DNA of 64,000 bases from Betaproteobacteria bacterium (lineage in GTDB: Bacteria; Pseudomonadota; Gammaproteobacteria; Burkholderiales; Casimicrobiaceae), in NCBI GenBank assembly GCA_027492485.1, contig JAPUER010000058.1, positions 2,619 through 66,618 of the forward strand, given 5' to 3'. Positions 1-4,443 of the stretch are shown in pieces. How positions within the stretch are numbered: position 1 is the stretch's first letter; every line of letters starts with the position of its first letter. Below the pieces are notes generated by a model. The model ran no database searches. It worked only from the letters and a program-made list of their open reading frames with translations, and had not been told where the DNA came from. The position numbers and the translations under genes are program-made.

Positions 1-81
1 GGCGACGATGGCGAAAGTTGCGCCCGCGTCGTCGAGGTTGAACTTGAATTTCTTTGGTGTTGTGCTCATGGCTTCGATCAT
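1..81 (-). CDS. N-terminal fragment of an unknown protein, cut by the left edge
   Basis: An open frame starts at ATG 81-79 and runs off the window with 27 codons visible (MIEAMSTTPKKF...). Its start overlaps the stop of the preceding peptide gene as ATGA, which is typical of translational coupling, so the two are probably one operon. A second in-frame ATG at 69-67 is an alternative start. The visible part is charged (KKFKF, LDD) with no signal peptide. No family is recognisable from so little. In a peptide cluster it could be another precursor, an immunity protein or a modification enzyme; that is guesswork. Confidence 0.4.
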   Translation of the reverse strand, partial: MIEAMSTTPKKFKFNLDDAGATFAIVA

Positions 82-218
82 TCGAGTGCTTCCGTGCCGA
101 GCAGGGTGCTGACGATTCCGCCAATACCACCACCGACGCCGGTACAGCCTTGCCCGTTGCCGCTATCGACCACGCCGCCGTTGACTGCGGCTTGTTCTGT
201 TGTGTTGATCGTTTTCAT
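78..218 (-). CDS. 46-residue Gly-rich peptide, possible bacteriocin or RiPP precursor
   Basis: The ORF encodes MKTINTTEQAAVNGG, then a Gly-rich tail with one Cys (GQGCTGVGGGIGG) and a hydrophobic stretch IVSTLL. The Gly-Gly at residues 14-15 and the GxxxG-rich hydrophobic segment resemble class II bacteriocin precursors processed after a double glycine, although the leader lacks the usual acidic/leucine pattern. The stop overlaps the next start as ATGA. The ATG is in turn overlapped by the stop of an 18-codon upstream ORF (215-271). The Shine-Dalgarno signal is weak, so translation may rely on coupling. Function is inferred only from composition and from the LuxR-linked context. Confidence 0.5.
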   Translation of the reverse strand: MKTINTTEQAAVNGGVVDSGNGQGCTGVGGGIGGIVSTLLGTEALE

Positions 219-271
219 GTGTTGTCTTTTTTATTGTTGTGTCGGCCTACGCCTCTTGCCGGGCGCTTCAT
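215..271 (-). CDS. Possible 18-codon coupling ORF
   Basis: A tiny ORF (MKRPARGVGRHNNKKDNT) ends in TGA overlapping the ATG of the Gly-rich peptide gene (ATGA). It is basic and has no clear ribosome-binding site. It may be a leader that couples translation, or chance. Confidence 0.18.
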   Translation of the reverse strand: MKRPARGVGRHNNKKDNT

Positions 272-281
272 CGATTCGGTT

Positions 282-407
282 CTACGTCTCGTGGCGTGAT
301 GCGGTTGTGTCTGCGGGCTCTGGTTGCTTTTGCTTTTCTTGTCCCCGTTGTTTTGACACCGCCGCATCACGCCACTGCTTGAATTCTTGTTTTGATTTGC
401 GGTTCAT
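282..407 (-). CDS. 41-residue charged hypothetical peptide
   Basis: The ORF encodes a very hydrophilic peptide rich in Lys, Gln, Glu and Arg (MNRKSKQEFKQWRDAAV...). It has no Cys, no double glycine and no membrane segment. A GAAGGA Shine-Dalgarno lies 7 nt before the ATG, but that stretch may belong to a degenerate dispersed repeat (410-448), so the signal could be coincidental. It lies in line with the other peptide genes on the minus strand. It is not recognised and could be non-coding. Confidence 0.35.
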   Translation of the reverse strand: MNRKSKQEFKQWRDAAVSKQRGQEKQKQPEPADTTASRHET

Positions 408-409
408 GG

Positions 410-448
410 TTCGATCCTTCGTCAAGCTCAGGATCACCACGAACGGCA
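410..448. repeat. Degenerate GTTCACC/CTGAGC-type dispersed repeat
   Basis: The segment holds ATCCTTCGTCAAGCTCAGG and then CACGAACGG. It resembles the hairpin repeat at 52804-52931 and 60401-60468 (TCCTGAGCTTGCGAAGG, GGTGAACGG). The match is partial, so this may be a decayed copy. Confidence 0.35.
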
Positions 449-453
449 GGTAT

Positions 454-561
454 TTAGTCGAAATCGATAACGAGGCATCCGTCGCAGGCCACGCAGAGCC
501 AGTCGCTCTGATTCATCTCGTGGCTTTCAATTTCGGGTAGCTCGAACTCTGCGGGTTTCAT
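454..561 (-). CDS. 35-residue Cys-rich peptide (CVACDGC motif)
   Basis: The ORF starts at ATG 561 with an AGGAG Shine-Dalgarno 7 nt upstream, one of the best in this cluster. The product has an acidic N-terminal half (ELPEIESHEMNQSD) and a C-terminal core WLCVACDGCLVIDFD with three Cys spaced C-x2-C-x2-C. A short acidic leader followed by a Cys-rich core suggests a modified peptide, a metal-binding peptide or a disulfide peptide. No double glycine is present. It is the first gene after lux-box promoter 1, about 100 nt downstream. No family is recognised. Confidence 0.55.
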   Translation of the reverse strand: MKPAEFELPEIESHEMNQSDWLCVACDGCLVIDFD

Positions 562-620
562 GTGGCTCTCCTTGTTGATGGACGGAAGCTTCGCTGTGCT
601 CGGCTACCGCTTGTTTGTTG

Positions 621-680
621 TTTACCGTGGAATGAATTTGATCGGAAATTTCGGTTTTGCGTAACTGTCAGAACTGACAG
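621..680 (-). promoter_or_regulatory. LuxR-controlled promoter 1 with a lux-box-like palindrome
   Basis: CTGTCAGAACTGACAG at 665-680 is a 7-bp perfect inverted repeat with a 2-nt centre. It fits the CT-N12-AG pattern of LuxR-family binding sites. Exactly 18 nt downstream on the minus strand begins a 26-nt block (646-621, starting TCCGAT and ending CGGTAAA) that matches promoter 2 at 22 of 26 positions. The box faces the Cys-rich peptide gene at 561. LuxR control is inferred from the adjacent regulator gene. Confidence 0.7.
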
Positions 681-695
681 GTGATGCGGCCGAAG

Positions 696-836
696 TTACT
701 GATAGCGTCCGCAAACACCGCCCGCATTCGACGACGCGGACGCGGTGCAATGCCGAGGCACACAGCCGTTGTCGTCGCGATTGCGTTCGTGGTGACGATT
801 GATCGGTTCGTGGTCGAGGGGGAAGTGCTTGCTCAT
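696..836 (-). CDS. 46-residue His/Arg/Cys-containing hypothetical peptide
   Basis: The ORF begins 18 nt after the stop of the double-glycine peptide gene, so both probably share lux-box promoter 2. The product is hydrophilic (MSKHFPLDHEPINRHHERNR...) with three Cys and a late Gly-Gly (SSNAGGVCGRYQ). The Shine-Dalgarno is poor. It ends just before lux box 1. No family is recognised. It may be a second precursor or a small accessory or immunity peptide. Confidence 0.4.
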   Translation of the reverse strand: MSKHFPLDHEPINRHHERNRDDNGCVPRHCTASASSNAGGVCGRYQ

Positions 837-854
837 GGTGAATTGGCGCTTGGG

Positions 855-998
855 TTAGATGATGACAATGGGGCCGGACGACACGTCGCCAACTCCTCCA
901 CCGATTGCGTCAAGGAAAGATGCGTCGAGCTCGGAAATACCTGTTGCATTCATCTCGGTGGCTGCGATGTTTTTGTTCTTGTCGTTCTTCTTGTTCAT
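855..998 (-). CDS. 47-residue double-glycine-leader peptide
   Basis: The ATG at 998 is preceded by AAAAGGAG with 7-nt spacing. The leader ends ISELDASFLDAIGGG, which fits the double-glycine consensus of peptides cleaved by C39-peptidase ABC exporters (acidic residue, hydrophobic positions, then GG). Cleavage after Gly-Gly would leave a short hydrophobic mature peptide of about 13-14 residues (GVGDVSSGPIVII), small for a bacteriocin and nearer to a signalling peptide or RiPP. It is the first gene after lux-box promoter 2. No exporter or modification enzyme is visible; it would have to lie left of the window or elsewhere. Confidence 0.65.
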   Translation of the reverse strand: MNKKNDKNKNIAATEMNATGISELDASFLDAIGGGVGDVSSGPIVII

Positions 999-1033
999 GA
1001 TCCGCTCCTTTTGTTTTTCTGTTTGCCGGTGTG

Positions 1034-1094
1034 TTTCACCGTTGAATGAATTCAATCGGAGAACGGGCTTTGTGAAAACTGTCAGAGCTGACAG
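1034..1094 (-). promoter_or_regulatory. LuxR-controlled promoter 2 with a lux-box-like palindrome
   Basis: CTGTCAGAGCTGACAG at 1079-1094 differs from box 1 by one base. It keeps the same 7-bp arms and the CT-N12-AG pattern. The block shared with promoter 1 starts 18 nt further on (1060-1034). The site lies just after the luxR stop and before the double-glycine peptide gene. The repeated box, spacing and block argue for a duplicated regulated promoter. Confidence 0.7.
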
Positions 1095-1109
1095 GTAGAA
1101 GGAAACACG

Positions 1110-1817
1110 CTACACGACGAGCTTGAGCTCAAGCGCTTTTGCAATGGCCGCACGCTTGTTGAATACCCCAAGTTTTTCGCAGATATTGCGAACGTGGAAG
1201 TTCGCTGTTCGTTCGGTGCTACCTAGTATTGAGCCCACTTCAAATGCTGTCTTGCCGGCGACGGTCCACTTGAGAACATCGAGTTCTTTTGGAGTGAGCT
1301 TTGGGAAGTCAAGCTGCCTCGTGTGCGCAAGTAACCGGTCTAGTGCAGGGAAGGCGAACGTGCTAAATAGTTGGGCTTCTGCGATCACTCGAACGACCTC
1401 GACTGGGTCCACCGGCAGTTCCGCATCTCGCGCAAAGCCGATGTTCAATTTGGCACCGGTTGGTGAATGCGTCGGTATGTCAAACCCAGCACGAAATCCG
1501 AATGGCTTGAATAGATCAGCAACATGCCCAAGCCCAGACTGTTCGTACAGCGTGACGCCCCAGAGAATTGGTCGAGGAACAGTCTTTACCGCTGCGCTGA
1601 TTGGATCGACAGGGGCAAACTGCTCCTGCTGATCTAGCCATTTCTGCGGGTAATTGTTTATCGTTGTCCACGCTTGGTTTGGCTTTGGGGTGCAGTAATC
1701 CGCAATCACCAAATCAAACCCCAACTTCCTACCAAACTTGATAAGTTCGACTTTGAAGTCTTCGATGGTCGGTGCGTGCATCACCGACGCGTAGAGGTCT
1801 TCGAGCAGGTGGTTCAT
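1110..1817 (-). CDS. LuxR-family quorum-sensing regulator
   Basis: The 235-residue protein has an N-terminal autoinducer-binding domain (about 15-160) and a C-terminal LuxR/GerE helix-turn-helix (about 172-235, LTPKELDVLKWTVAGKTAFE). Pocket landmarks are W60 in NYPQKW, D71-P72, and W86 in PRPILW. The position four after W60, normally Tyr, is Gln (Q64), and the W-to-DP spacing is two residues shorter than in LasR. It may therefore bind a non-standard ligand. No luxI is visible. The start lacks a strong ribosome-binding site. It most likely binds the lux boxes at 665-680 and 1079-1094 and controls the peptide genes. Confidence 0.85.
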   Translation of the reverse strand: MNHLLEDLYASVMHAPTIEDFKVELIKFGRKLGFDLVIADYCTPKPNQAWTTINNYPQKWLDQQEQFAPVDPISAAVKTVPRPILWGVTLYEQSGLGHVADLFKPFGFRAGFDIPTHSPTGAKLNIGFARDAELPVDPVEVVRVIAEAQLFSTFAFPALDRLLAHTRQLDFPKLTPKELDVLKWTVAGKTAFEVGSILGSTERTANFHVRNICEKLGVFNKRAAIAKALELKLVV

Positions 1818-2368
1818 GCGCGAACTTCGGATTGCTTGATGACCGGATTGACGAAGTCAGCGCGAACCAAACCTGCGGCGCGACGTCGAGTTTGGCGAAA
1901 TGCGAATTGCGAAACGAGAAGGTGCATGGTGACGGTGTTCATTTGGACGATTTGCGACCGCGCCACGAAACGTGGCGCAGCGAAAACAACAACAACAACG
2001 ACGACCGAAGCAGCGGGCCACAGAGTGCGCGGGATTCGCGGGTGCGTGGCGTACGAGAGGGAAAAGCGATGCGCAGTCAGGTTTTTGACCTGCGGGGAGT
2101 GTAATGGCAGCCTTTGATGTAAGTAAATAAGACATCGTCATGTTGCGAATAATCCGAGGCGGTTTGATGCTGCGACGCAACATGCCTTGCCACGCGACAC
2201 TGAGCTGGCGCCCCGAACGGTGTTGACGATCTCGGATTACCTTCGTGTTGAATTCCGGCGTCAGCTTGCGCCGTCGGTGCCGCGCTTTTCGGTGACGCCG
2301 ACTAGTCCTTGTCGCAGCTATTCCGGCGTTAGTTTCTACCGGAGTTCCACACTTATCTTGGTGTCTTG
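1818..2368. other. 550-nt intergenic stretch without a supported gene
   Basis: No ORF here has a convincing ribosome-binding site or family resemblance. The stretch probably holds the luxR promoter, but none stands out. Visible structure is limited to a 9-bp inverted repeat, CATGTTGCG (2139-2147) with CGCAACATG (2176-2184), and a smaller one, CAGGTTTTTGACCTG (2078-2092). Confidence 0.4.
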
Positions 2369-2396
2369 AAAAGCGGGGGCACTTTTCATCCCCGCT
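2369..2396 (-). terminator. Candidate Rho-independent terminator after the envZ-like gene
   Basis: On the minus strand AGCGGGG and CCCCGCT form a 7-bp GC stem around an 11-nt loop, followed by a short TTTT. The stem starts inside the last codons of the kinase gene. The U-tract is short, so strength is uncertain. Confidence 0.45.
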
Positions 2397-3720
2397 CGGC
2401 CAGCGGTAGCCGCAGCCGCGCCACCGTGCCGCCGCCCGAACGCGGCAACAGGTCGAGGCTACCGCCGTGCCATTTCGCCAGCCGCTCGACGATGGCGAGG
2501 CCGAGGCCGGCACCCATCGTGCCGCCGCGGGCATGGTCGCCACGCACGAAGGGCTGCTTGAGGCGCTCGCTGTCTTCCGCCTTGATGCCGTCGCCGGCAT
2601 CGAGCACGTCGATGTCGACCATTGCGCCGTCACGCCGCAGCAAGAGCTCGACCGGCGGCTTGCCGTAGCGGTGCGCGTTTTCGATCAGGTTCATCAGCAT
2701 GCGCTCGAAGGCGGCCGGGTAGGCATCGACGACGATGGCTTCCGGGCCCGGCTGCCAGCTCACCGGCAAGTTGCGCGAGGCCGCCTTGTGCGCGATGGCG
2801 CCGAGCACGATCTGCAAATCGGCCTGCTGCGGCGGCTCCTTCGGCGTGCCGCGGGCGAAATCGAGGAACTGGGTGACGATGCGGTCGATCTCGTCGATGT
2901 CGGCCGCCATTTCGTCGCGGCTCTGGGCGTCGCCGACCGAAATCTCGCTGGCCAGACGCAGCCGCGTCAGCGGCGTGCGGATGTCGTGCGAGATGCCGGC
3001 CAGCATGGTGCTGCGGTTGCGCTCCAGTTGCTCCAGATTGGCGGCCATGCGGTTGACGTTGCGGGCGACGCGCGAGATTTCCTGCGGCCCGTCTTCCGGC
3101 AGCGGGTCGGGGCGCTTGCCCTCGGCCACTTTGTCCACCGCGTCGGCTAGCTCGGCCAGCGGCTTGGTCAACCGCCGCGCGAACCAGTAGGTGCCGGCCA
3201 GCAGCAGCGCCAGCACACCGCCGAGCGTGAGCCAGAGCCGGAGCGGCACCTCGCCGGAATCGACGTTGCGGATCGGGAAGCCGGCCCAGACGCCGCGCGT
3301 GTTGCCCTCGGCGCCGACGTTGAGGCGAATCCACACTACCGGCTGCTCCATGCGCATGCCGAGGCGGATCTCGGTGTCGTGCCCGAGCTGCTCGTGCAGT
3401 TTTTCGACCAGCGGCTGCAACGCCGGGCCGCGCGGCACCTGGCCGATTTCGGGGCGGCGGTCGACCGGCACCAGCAGCGCGCCGTACTCGCGGCCGATCA
3501 TCTGCAGGCCCATGAGCGGCCGGCCGGAACGGTCCTCGCTGGCCTGCTTGTTGAGCGCGTTGCGCAGCGCCTCGATCTGGGCGATCTTCGCCTCCGAAAA
3601 GTTGCGCGCGATGAGCCCGGCGCGATCCTGCCGGAACAGCAGCGCCATCGCCAGCACGGCCACCAGCAGCGCCACCAGCAGCAGCGCCACCATGCGCCAG
3701 AACAGGCTTTTCGGCAGCAC
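2386..3720 (-). CDS. envZ: EnvZ-type sensor histidine kinase
   Basis: The 444-residue inner-membrane kinase has an N-terminal membrane helix (about 8-29), a periplasmic sensor region (about 30-160), a second helix (about 161-180), a HAMP segment, a HisKA box with GISHDIRTPLTRLRLA and an ATPase domain (NLIENAHRYG, DAGDGI, GAGLGLAIV). The H-box is the EnvZ form. The gene lies 15 nt after its response regulator and they are surely co-transcribed. Family knowledge says it autophosphorylates and passes phosphate to OmpR in response to osmotic or envelope conditions; the true signal here is unknown. Confidence 0.88.
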   Translation of the reverse strand: MLPKSLFWRMVALLLVALLVAVLAMALLFRQDRAGLIARNFSEAKIAQIEALRNALNKQASEDRSGRPLMGLQMIGREYGALLVPVDRRPEIGQVPRGPALQPLVEKLHEQLGHDTEIRLGMRMEQPVVWIRLNVGAEGNTRGVWAGFPIRNVDSGEVPLRLWLTLGGVLALLLAGTYWFARRLTKPLAELADAVDKVAEGKRPDPLPEDGPQEISRVARNVNRMAANLEQLERNRSTMLAGISHDIRTPLTRLRLASEISVGDAQSRDEMAADIDEIDRIVTQFLDFARGTPKEPPQQADLQIVLGAIAHKAASRNLPVSWQPGPEAIVVDAYPAAFERMLMNLIENAHRYGKPPVELLLRRDGAMVDIDVLDAGDGIKAEDSERLKQPFVRGDHARGGTMGAGLGLAIVERLAKWHGGSLDLLPRSGGGTVARLRLPLAERG

Positions 3721-3735
3721 GATCGCAGCGCCCGC

Positions 3736-4443
3736 TCAGTCCGGCACGAACACGTAGCCGCGGCCCCACACCGTCTGGATGTAGCGCGGCTTGCCGGCGT
3801 CCGCCTCGACCAGTTTGCGCAGGCGCGACACCTGCACGTCCACCGCGCGATCGAACACCTCGTGCTCCTTGCCGCGCGCCAGCATCGACAGCCGTTCGCG
3901 CGACAGCGATTCGTGCGGGTGGGTGACGAACACCTTGAGCATGGCGAATTCGCTGGTAGTCAGCTCCTGCACCTCGCCGGCGCGGGTCAGCGTGCGGGTG
4001 GTGAAATTGACCTCGCAATCGCCGAAGCGAAGCGGCTGGTCGACCGGCAGCGGCGCGCCCGGCGCCGCCTCGGCGACCCGGCGCAGCACGGCATGCATGC
4101 GCGCCACCAACTCGCGCGGACTGAAGGGTTTCGGCAGATAGTCGTCGGCGCCGGCGTCGAGGCCGTCGATGCGCTCGTCCTCCTCGCCCTTGGCGGTCAG
4201 CATGATGATCGGCGTGCGGTCGCCGCCGCTGCGCAGGCGCCGGCAGACGGCGATGCCGTCCTCGTGCGGCATCATCCAGTCGAGCACGATCAGATGCGGC
4301 GGGTCGCGCTCCATGCGGCGCGACAGCTCGCGCGCATCGGGCAGGCTGGTCACGCGAAAGCCCTGTTCGCCGAGGAAGCGCTGCAGCAGATCGCGCAGAC
4401 GCAGGTCGTCGTCGACGATGAGAATATGGTGCGATCCACTCAT
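3736..4443 (-). CDS. ompR: OmpR-type response regulator
   Basis: The 235-residue protein has a receiver domain (about 6-120) with the acidic pocket VDDD, the phospho-acceptor in LDWMMPHEDG and the conserved Lys in LPKPF. A winged-helix C-terminal domain (about 135-233) ends QTVWGRGYVFVPD. It resembles OmpR throughout (TAKGEEDERIDGL, GADDY). It is the first gene of the pair with the EnvZ-like kinase. It is transcribed away from the Spy/CpxP-like gene across a 124-nt region holding tandem half-sites at 4482-4500, which suggests it controls that gene or itself. Confidence 0.88.
   Translation of the reverse strand: MSGSHHILIVDDDLRLRDLLQRFLGEQGFRVTSLPDARELSRRMERDPPHLIVLDWMMPHEDGIAVCRRLRSGGDRTPIIMLTAKGEEDERIDGLDAGADDYLPKPFSPRELVARMHAVLRRVAEAAPGAPLPVDQPLRFGDCEVNFTTRTLTRAGEVQELTTSEFAMLKVFVTHPHESLSRERLSMLARGKEHEVFDRAVDVQVSRLRKLVEADAGKPRYIQTVWGRGYVFVPD

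Follow-up and report, generated by a model that had tools for sequence, protein, structure and literature searches.

Organisation of the peptide gene cluster behind luxR

The window analysed here is a stretch of 64,000 nucleotides from a Betaproteobacteria bacterium (GCA_027492485.1, contig JAPUER010000058.1; C58:2619-66618 of source genome G000), at the left end of which a LuxR-type regulator gene was found to head a series of very small peptide genes on the minus strand, along with two predicted lux boxes. A preliminary description of the window had proposed this arrangement, and it was supported by the Pfam domains of the regulator, by two boxes with 0 mismatches and by small open reading frames (ORFs) with ribosome sites. 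Contig C58 extends 2,618 bases left of base 1, and features there are given in coordinates of segment L009 (C58:1-12000; window coordinate = L009 coordinate minus 2618). Gene order in the window is luxR, box 1, peptide 1, ORF 2, box 2, peptide 3, ORF 4, peptide 5 and peptide 6, continuing leftward past an assembly gap with peptide 7, a CPBP gene, a duplicate of peptides 5 and 6, peptides 10, 11 and 12, and a second CPBP gene. The features are as follows (aa, amino acids; GG, double-glycine).

Window 1110-1817, minus: luxR, LuxR-type regulator with autoinducer-binding and helix-turn-helix domains
Window 1077-1096, minus: predicted lux box 1, directly downstream of luxR, 0 mismatches to ACCTGTCAGNTCTGACAGTT
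Window 1050-1055, minus: -10-like hexamer TTGAAT of promoter 1, from the promoter alignment
Window 855-998, minus: peptide 1, 47 aa, GG leader, good ribosome site, predicted mature part of 13 residues
Window 696-836, minus: ORF 2, 46 aa, doubtful gene, open frame only, without a clear ribosome site
Window 663-682, minus: predicted lux box 2, 0 mismatches to ACCTGTCAGNTCTGACAGTT
Window 636-641, minus: -10-like hexamer TCAAAT of promoter 2, from the promoter alignment
Window 454-561, minus: peptide 3, 35 aa, acidic, CxxCxxC, good ribosome site, without GG leader, first gene after box 2
Window 402-446: dispersed repeat, further copies on contigs C35 and C30
Window 282-407, minus: ORF 4, 41 aa, doubtful gene, open frame only, start adjoining the dispersed repeat
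Window 78-218, minus: peptide 5, 46 aa, GG leader, Gly-rich mature part, weak ribosome site
Window 1-81, minus: peptide 6, one hydrophobic segment, continuing into the gap; ATG overlaps the stop of peptide 5
L009:2519-2618: assembly gap of 100 N, directly left of window base 1, cutting peptide 6
L009:2297-2476, minus: peptide 7, leader NGG
L009:1747-2253, minus: first CPBP gene (PF02517)
L009:1678-1743, minus: peptide 5 duplicate, 5'-truncated, C-terminal part only
L009:1559-1678, minus: peptide 6 duplicate, whole
L009:1342-1482, minus: peptide 10, leader SGG
L009:1105-1242, minus: peptide 11, leader NGA
L009:916-1053, minus: peptide 12, leader NGG, class IIb bacteriocin family match
L009:256-756, minus: second CPBP gene (PF02517)

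Peptides 1, 3, 5 and 6 were retained from the original proposal of four to six small ORFs, while ORF 2 and ORF 4 are doubtful, with nothing but an open frame to support them. The peptide types were described correctly (GG leaders at 855-998 and 78-218, the latter Gly-rich, and CxxCxxC at 454-561), as was a translationally coupled ORF cut by the window edge, which is peptide 6. Leftward extension, which the preliminary description had advised, added four more peptide genes (three with a GG leader and one with a Gly-Ala leader) and two genes for membrane proteases of CPBP/Abi type; a modification enzyme, also mentioned there, was not identified, no specific search for one having been made. The truncated copy of peptide 5 and the whole copy of peptide 6 together form a repeat of 146 bp (90%).

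In total, five peptides of the C58 cluster carry a GG leader and one a GA leader, with one more GG peptide at a second locus on contig C62. A leader pattern (ATG, ribosome site and GG/GA leader), which was defined after the peptides had been seen and which misses peptide 5, fitted 5 ORFs in L009:241-3720, whereas 200 dinucleotide shuffles, which took the 100 N of the gap as A, gave 0.08 on average and never more than 1; on the other 61.6 kb of the window 3 ORFs fitted the same filter. Peptide 12 scored above the cut-off of TIGR03949, the class IIb bacteriocin model for lactobin A/cerein 7B (25.0 bits, cut-off 21.5), with the other nine proteins tested alongside it giving no match to this model. 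No Pfam or NCBIfam family was matched at E<=1 by peptides 1, 3, 5, 10 and 11, the Pfam/NCBIfam search with peptide 7 gave only an irrelevant NCBIfam model below its cut-off, and no Pfam family was matched by peptide 6 and ORF 2. GxxxG motifs are present in several predicted mature parts. Relatives of peptide 6 occur at L009:1559-1678, on C62 and in G009, another genome of the genus.

A 43-bp untranslated leader (98% alike) was observed to precede two unrelated peptides (L009:1244-1286 and 2476-2518), with a similar one before a peptide on C62; peptide cassettes may thus be shuffled behind a common ribosome-site segment.

Both CPBP genes score above the cut-off of PF02517 (27.2 and 25.7 bits, cut-off 22.4), and the CPBP profile matched 5 of 399 genomes of the order at E<=1e-6. 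The matches in the four other genomes were not accepted as relatives of the system, lying in 19-kb stretches without luxR, C39, an HlyD match or convincing GG peptides. We read the two peptide-plus-CPBP units (peptides 5-7 and peptides 10-12, each with its own CPBP gene) as putative bacteriocin-and-protection modules. As the accessible part of PMC9298176 associates CPBP proteases of streptococci with immunity, with processing and with signalling, protection would be the likeliest role for the proteins encoded here, with other roles possible.

Putative lux-box promoters and the exporter operon

A search with ACCTGTCAGNTCTGACAGTT (<=3 mismatches) across 17 genomes of the genus identified 15 distinct box sites, compared with 1 match in the 17 genomes, and 0 in the source genome, for a reversed control pattern. 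Six of the sites were accepted as promoters, eight lie within ORFs of >=120 aa and one lies in no such ORF. The source genome contributes five sites, namely two on C58, C6:130-149, C62:12616-12635 and C29:8103-8122, four of which precede peptide or exporter genes. The fifth, on C29 (1 mismatch), falls within anmK (an assignment made by Pfam for the C29 gene only) and was discarded as a promoter, as were matches in G011, G012 and G013, where the surrounding ORFs read like the C29 anmK. Further matches lie inside an integrase-family gene (G005), inside a PRA isomerase gene (G017) and within ORFs of 333 and 353 aa (the G016 site and one of the two G018 sites); the second G018 site is the one in no ORF of >=120 aa. 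The accepted sites on C6 and C62 also fall within mechanical ORFs, that on C6 antisense to hlyD and that on C62 in the upward extension of the peptide-6 frame.

The six promoters (C58 twice, C6, C62, G009 and G019) align without gaps from the box to the sequence T..AAT, which is invariant in all six and situated 21 bp after the box. The number of invariant positions observed for all six was reached in 0 of 20,000 permutations, a figure that overstates the independence of the promoters because promoters 1 and 2 (P1 and P2; 73% alike over 67 nt) and P1 and its orthologous G019 promoter share descent; among the four least related promoters (P1, C6, C62 and G009), 2 of 20,000 permutations reached the observed invariance. 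Furthermore, a box lies in the noncoding stretch directly behind luxR in all three of the 17 genomes that retain this luxR.

The preliminary description had suggested looking for a C39-peptidase ABC exporter left of base 1. Such an exporter was found, with the same box and -10-like element, but it is on contig C6 and not on C58. Its operon, which follows the box at C6:130-149, comprises the following genes.

C6:212-1492: hlyD
C6:1541-3835: C39-peptidase ABC exporter gene, above the Pfam cut-off
C6:3836-4357: RsaM-like gene, last gene of the operon

On C62, the box is followed by a relative of peptide 6 (50% over 38 aa) and a relative of peptide 10 (40% over 45 aa), and then by a peptide with an ITGG leader, another short ORF and a hydrophobic protein of 93 aa. 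The source genome has four C39 matches, two of them on C35 together with HlyD and peptides with VSGG leaders, where no box was found at <=3 mismatches. Since the lux-box exporter is one of several in the genome, the box appears to mark a specific subset. The peptide and exporter region on C35 lies at about 9,900-10,700 of L016 on the minus strand, and one C39 gene looks truncated (open frame of 160 aa). HlyD matches were obtained in 14 of the 17 genus genomes at E<=1e-40; the best outside the source genome is only 41% identical, and these matches were not regarded as orthologues.

RsaM is a modulator of acyl-homoserine lactone (AHL) quorum sensing. The RsaM-like protein of the exporter operon scored 23.7 bits against a profile of 17 RsaM proteins (from 17 of 20 loci returned), with the best of 701 controls (500 shuffles and 201 ORFs) reaching 3.2, and hhalign gave a probability of 93%. 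Its residues W80, W96, W98 and W146 align with four Trp-rich columns of the 17 sequences, and we infer that they correspond to the published RsaM Trp quartet. A search of the PDB gave one irrelevant match (E 0.44). A LuxR match was found beside rsaM in both of the two RsaM loci examined further, and rsaM genes are described in the accessible part of PMC10710839 as always adjacent to luxI and/or luxR. The location of the RsaM-like gene in the box-bearing exporter operon would thus fit C6 and C58 as one locus.

The LuxR receptor and distribution of the system

The luxR product (235 aa) matches Autoind_bind (43.1 bits) and GerE (47.2 bits) of Pfam, both above cut-off. Of the residues that we take to be conserved in TraR-type pockets (Trp, Tyr, Asp, Pro, Trp and Gly), it retains W60, D71, P72, W86 and G111.

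LuxR matches at E<=1e-15 were found in 8 of 64 genomes of the family, including the source genome, with close orthologues only in G019 (79%) and G009 (60%). A second luxR copy in G019 (73%) is cut by the contig start, the two copies lying side by side (L027, on G019:C721, 1-556 and 1582-2289). The preliminary description expected the small ORFs to be conserved where luxR is kept, and this applies to G009, in which luxR and the box are followed by a 63-aa peptide related to peptide 6, but not to G019, which has a PIN-domain gene instead. A peptide-6 profile matched 3 of 399 genomes of the order at E<=0.01, namely the source genome and two others whose weak matches, within frames of >1,600 aa, were rejected; in the genus, 6 of 17 genomes matched at E<=1, strongly only in the source genome and G009. 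The RsaM-like protein was found in 1 of the 64 family genomes, that of the source. The system looks accessory, as suggested by the few close luxR orthologues, by HlyD of <=41% identity in the genus and by the restriction of the RsaM-like protein to this genome among the 64.

Interpretation and alternative explanations

From the gene order, leaders, boxes, common promoter spacing, exporter and CPBP domains, we consider it probable that the locus represents a LuxR-solo regulon that produces and exports class II bacteriocin- or microcin-like peptides, the producer probably being protected against its own peptides. LuxR, probably ligand-bound, would bind lux boxes whose centres lie about 34 bp before the -10 hexamer and activate at least four promoters, namely both of those in the window, which serve peptides, and those of the C6 exporter operon and the C62 peptide locus. 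The C39 exporter would cut the short leaders at Gly-Gly or Gly-Ala and secrete the peptides, while the CPBP membrane proteins, whose genes follow those of the peptides, would serve in producer protection or in processing, and the RsaM-like protein of the exporter operon would act as a brake on the LuxR circuit.

The preliminary description had stated that the set matched no system it could name. This was not upheld, as the set resembles GG class II bacteriocin/microcin clusters with CPBP genes, such as the pAWOD920 locus of Aliivibrio wodanis (PMC4462113, accessible part), with which it has in common GG leader peptides, a C39-peptidase ABC exporter and HlyD (here on contig C6) and Abi/CPBP-type genes; GG bacteriocins with a C39 exporter, HlyD and Abi genes are thus already known in Gram-negatives. 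Here, in contrast, several unlike peptides stand under one LuxR-type regulator with putative lux boxes. A link between bacteriocin and quorum sensing is reported for A. wodanis in a list of LitR-dependent genes and not, in the accessible part of that source, as a lux-box promoter (PMC8861277). The likeness to the lactobin A/cerein 7B (TIGR03949) and lactococcin G-beta (NF038034) families lies in peptide 12, which is above and just below their respective cut-offs, and in the GxxxG motifs; the Gram-negative host, the anionic peptides and the putative lux-box control differ. The gonococcal nap island is likewise betaproteobacterial, with GG peptides, a C39 peptidase, an immunity-like gene and a putative regulator, but the accessible part of PMC11798529 describes a FapF-like channel, NapR in place of LuxR, cationic peptides and an autolysis phenotype. 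With LuxR solos and RsaM-associated AHL circuits (PMC10710839, accessible part) the locus shares the LuxR domain structure and an RsaM-like protein with conserved Trp positions, whereas its receptor lacks the Tyr and its RsaM-like gene is in an exporter operon on another contig than luxR. No report of LuxR/lux-box promoters on GG peptide genes was found in the searches of open-access PMC text, and since such bacteriocin clusters are already known, the individual parts are known and the putative LuxR/lux-box wiring is the new element.

A number of observations weigh against the proposed regulon. The ligand-contacting pocket Tyr is replaced or deleted (a two-residue alignment gap lies opposite LasR Tyr64), and luxI gave 0 matches at E<=0.001 in the source genome, a draft about 99% complete, with no control genome matching either. 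Across the 64 family genomes, the luxI search (PF00765) matched 8 at E<=0.001, 4 of them above cut-off and the source genome not among them; the two of these eight examined both scored best as GNAT acetyltransferases (PF13444, 107.9 and 114.4 bits) and were rejected as luxI. As no luxI was found and the Tyr is absent, AHL as the signal, put forward in the preliminary description, is unproven; a foreign AHL or another small molecule may be the ligand, or there may be none. The predicted mature parts carry a net negative charge (-1 to -3), and peptide 12 falls below the cut-offs of NF038034 (35.7, cut-off 37) and PF10439 (Bacteriocin_IIc; 16.7, cut-off 27.1). Both CPBP proteins have the FxxxH and HxxxN motifs, but ETxxxQ in place of EExxxR as the first motif, and the RsaM-like protein is below the cut-off of Pfam DUF4902 (PF16245; 15.6 bits, cut-off 25). 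To these are added the shared descent among the six promoters, the location of the exporter and second peptide locus on contigs other than C58, the lack of an ATG start in the C62 copy of peptide 10, and G019, where homology behind luxR and the box ends at the ribosome site before the PIN-domain ORF, the peptide having been lost.

In our view it is unlikely that the peptides of the same regulon act against the producing population itself, causing autolysis or programmed death as the gonococcal Nap peptides are reported to do, and not against competitors. The nap island, similar in its parts, leads to autolysis with no detectable killing of competitors in the accessible part of PMC11798529, a further point against bacteriocin action here, and quorum control suits timed lysis; two CPBP genes and several unlike peptides nevertheless better suit a bacteriocin array, and the Nap peptides are cationic while those of C58 are anionic. 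Unlikely also is a role of the peptides as pheromones, by which LuxR would launch a second stage of communication, based on peptides. Pheromones and bacteriocins have short leaders and C39 export in common, and SilX, a CPBP protease, has been associated with the processing of signal peptides (PMC9298176, accessible part); the presence of many dissimilar peptides together and the class IIb family match speak against this, as does the lack of a histidine-kinase peptide receptor within the cluster, the nearest being an EnvZ/OmpR-like pair at window 2386-4443.

That this is an ordinary peptide cluster, with nearby boxes that are not LuxR sites or with a regulator other than LuxR, seems quite improbable: 9 of the 15 box-like sites lie elsewhere in the 17 genomes, eight of them within ORFs of >=120 aa, but the box recurs behind luxR wherever this luxR is kept (3/3) and the -10 spacing is common to all six promoters. 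Very improbable is a decaying mobile cassette without present function. The truncated peptide 5 duplicate, the C62 peptide-10 copy without ATG, the G019 remnant and the insertion-sequence-like edge repeats would fit decay, while luxR, both CPBP genes, the exporter, HlyD and seven peptide genes are all open, and promoter elements are retained at unlinked loci.

Returning to the LuxR-solo bacteriocin regulon, we put forward a more specific form of it tentatively, as a possibility. On this view, a Gram-negative bacterium may have acquired a multi-bacteriocin regulon by horizontal transfer. Its LuxR solo, whose pocket departs from the canonical one, would respond to AHLs of neighbours or to another small ligand, with tuning by the RsaM-like protein of the exporter operon, and would directly drive several two-peptide-like bacteriocins, CPBP protection and a C39 exporter, all from a single type of lux-box/-10 promoter. 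Such a regulon would rebuild the logic of the Gram-positive blp/pln regulons with AHL-type hardware. If true, a bacterium without an AHL of its own would arm itself on its neighbours' signals, and LuxR-type quorum sensing and class II peptide bacteriocins, usually separate fields, would be joined. The lux-box/-10 signature may serve as a search handle for further peptides of this kind, for which homology searches work poorly, and the system is small, with LuxR, promoter, exporter and peptides testable in a laboratory strain.

With regard to the surroundings of the cluster, the EnvZ/OmpR-type histidine kinase and response regulator (window 2386-4443, minus) lie immediately upstream of luxR on the same strand; microcin PDI is described as controlled by EnvZ/OmpR in a source accessible in part. 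A repeat resembling an insertion-sequence end (80-83% alike) was identified at window 2303-2387, L009:153-237, G000:C6:5-68 and G000:C15:23323-23383, thus flanking the peptide cluster on both sides and also sitting at the start of the exporter contig C6. This repeat probably explains the contig ends, and its presence at the ends of both C58 and C6 is suggestive only of the two contigs being neighbours across an insertion sequence.

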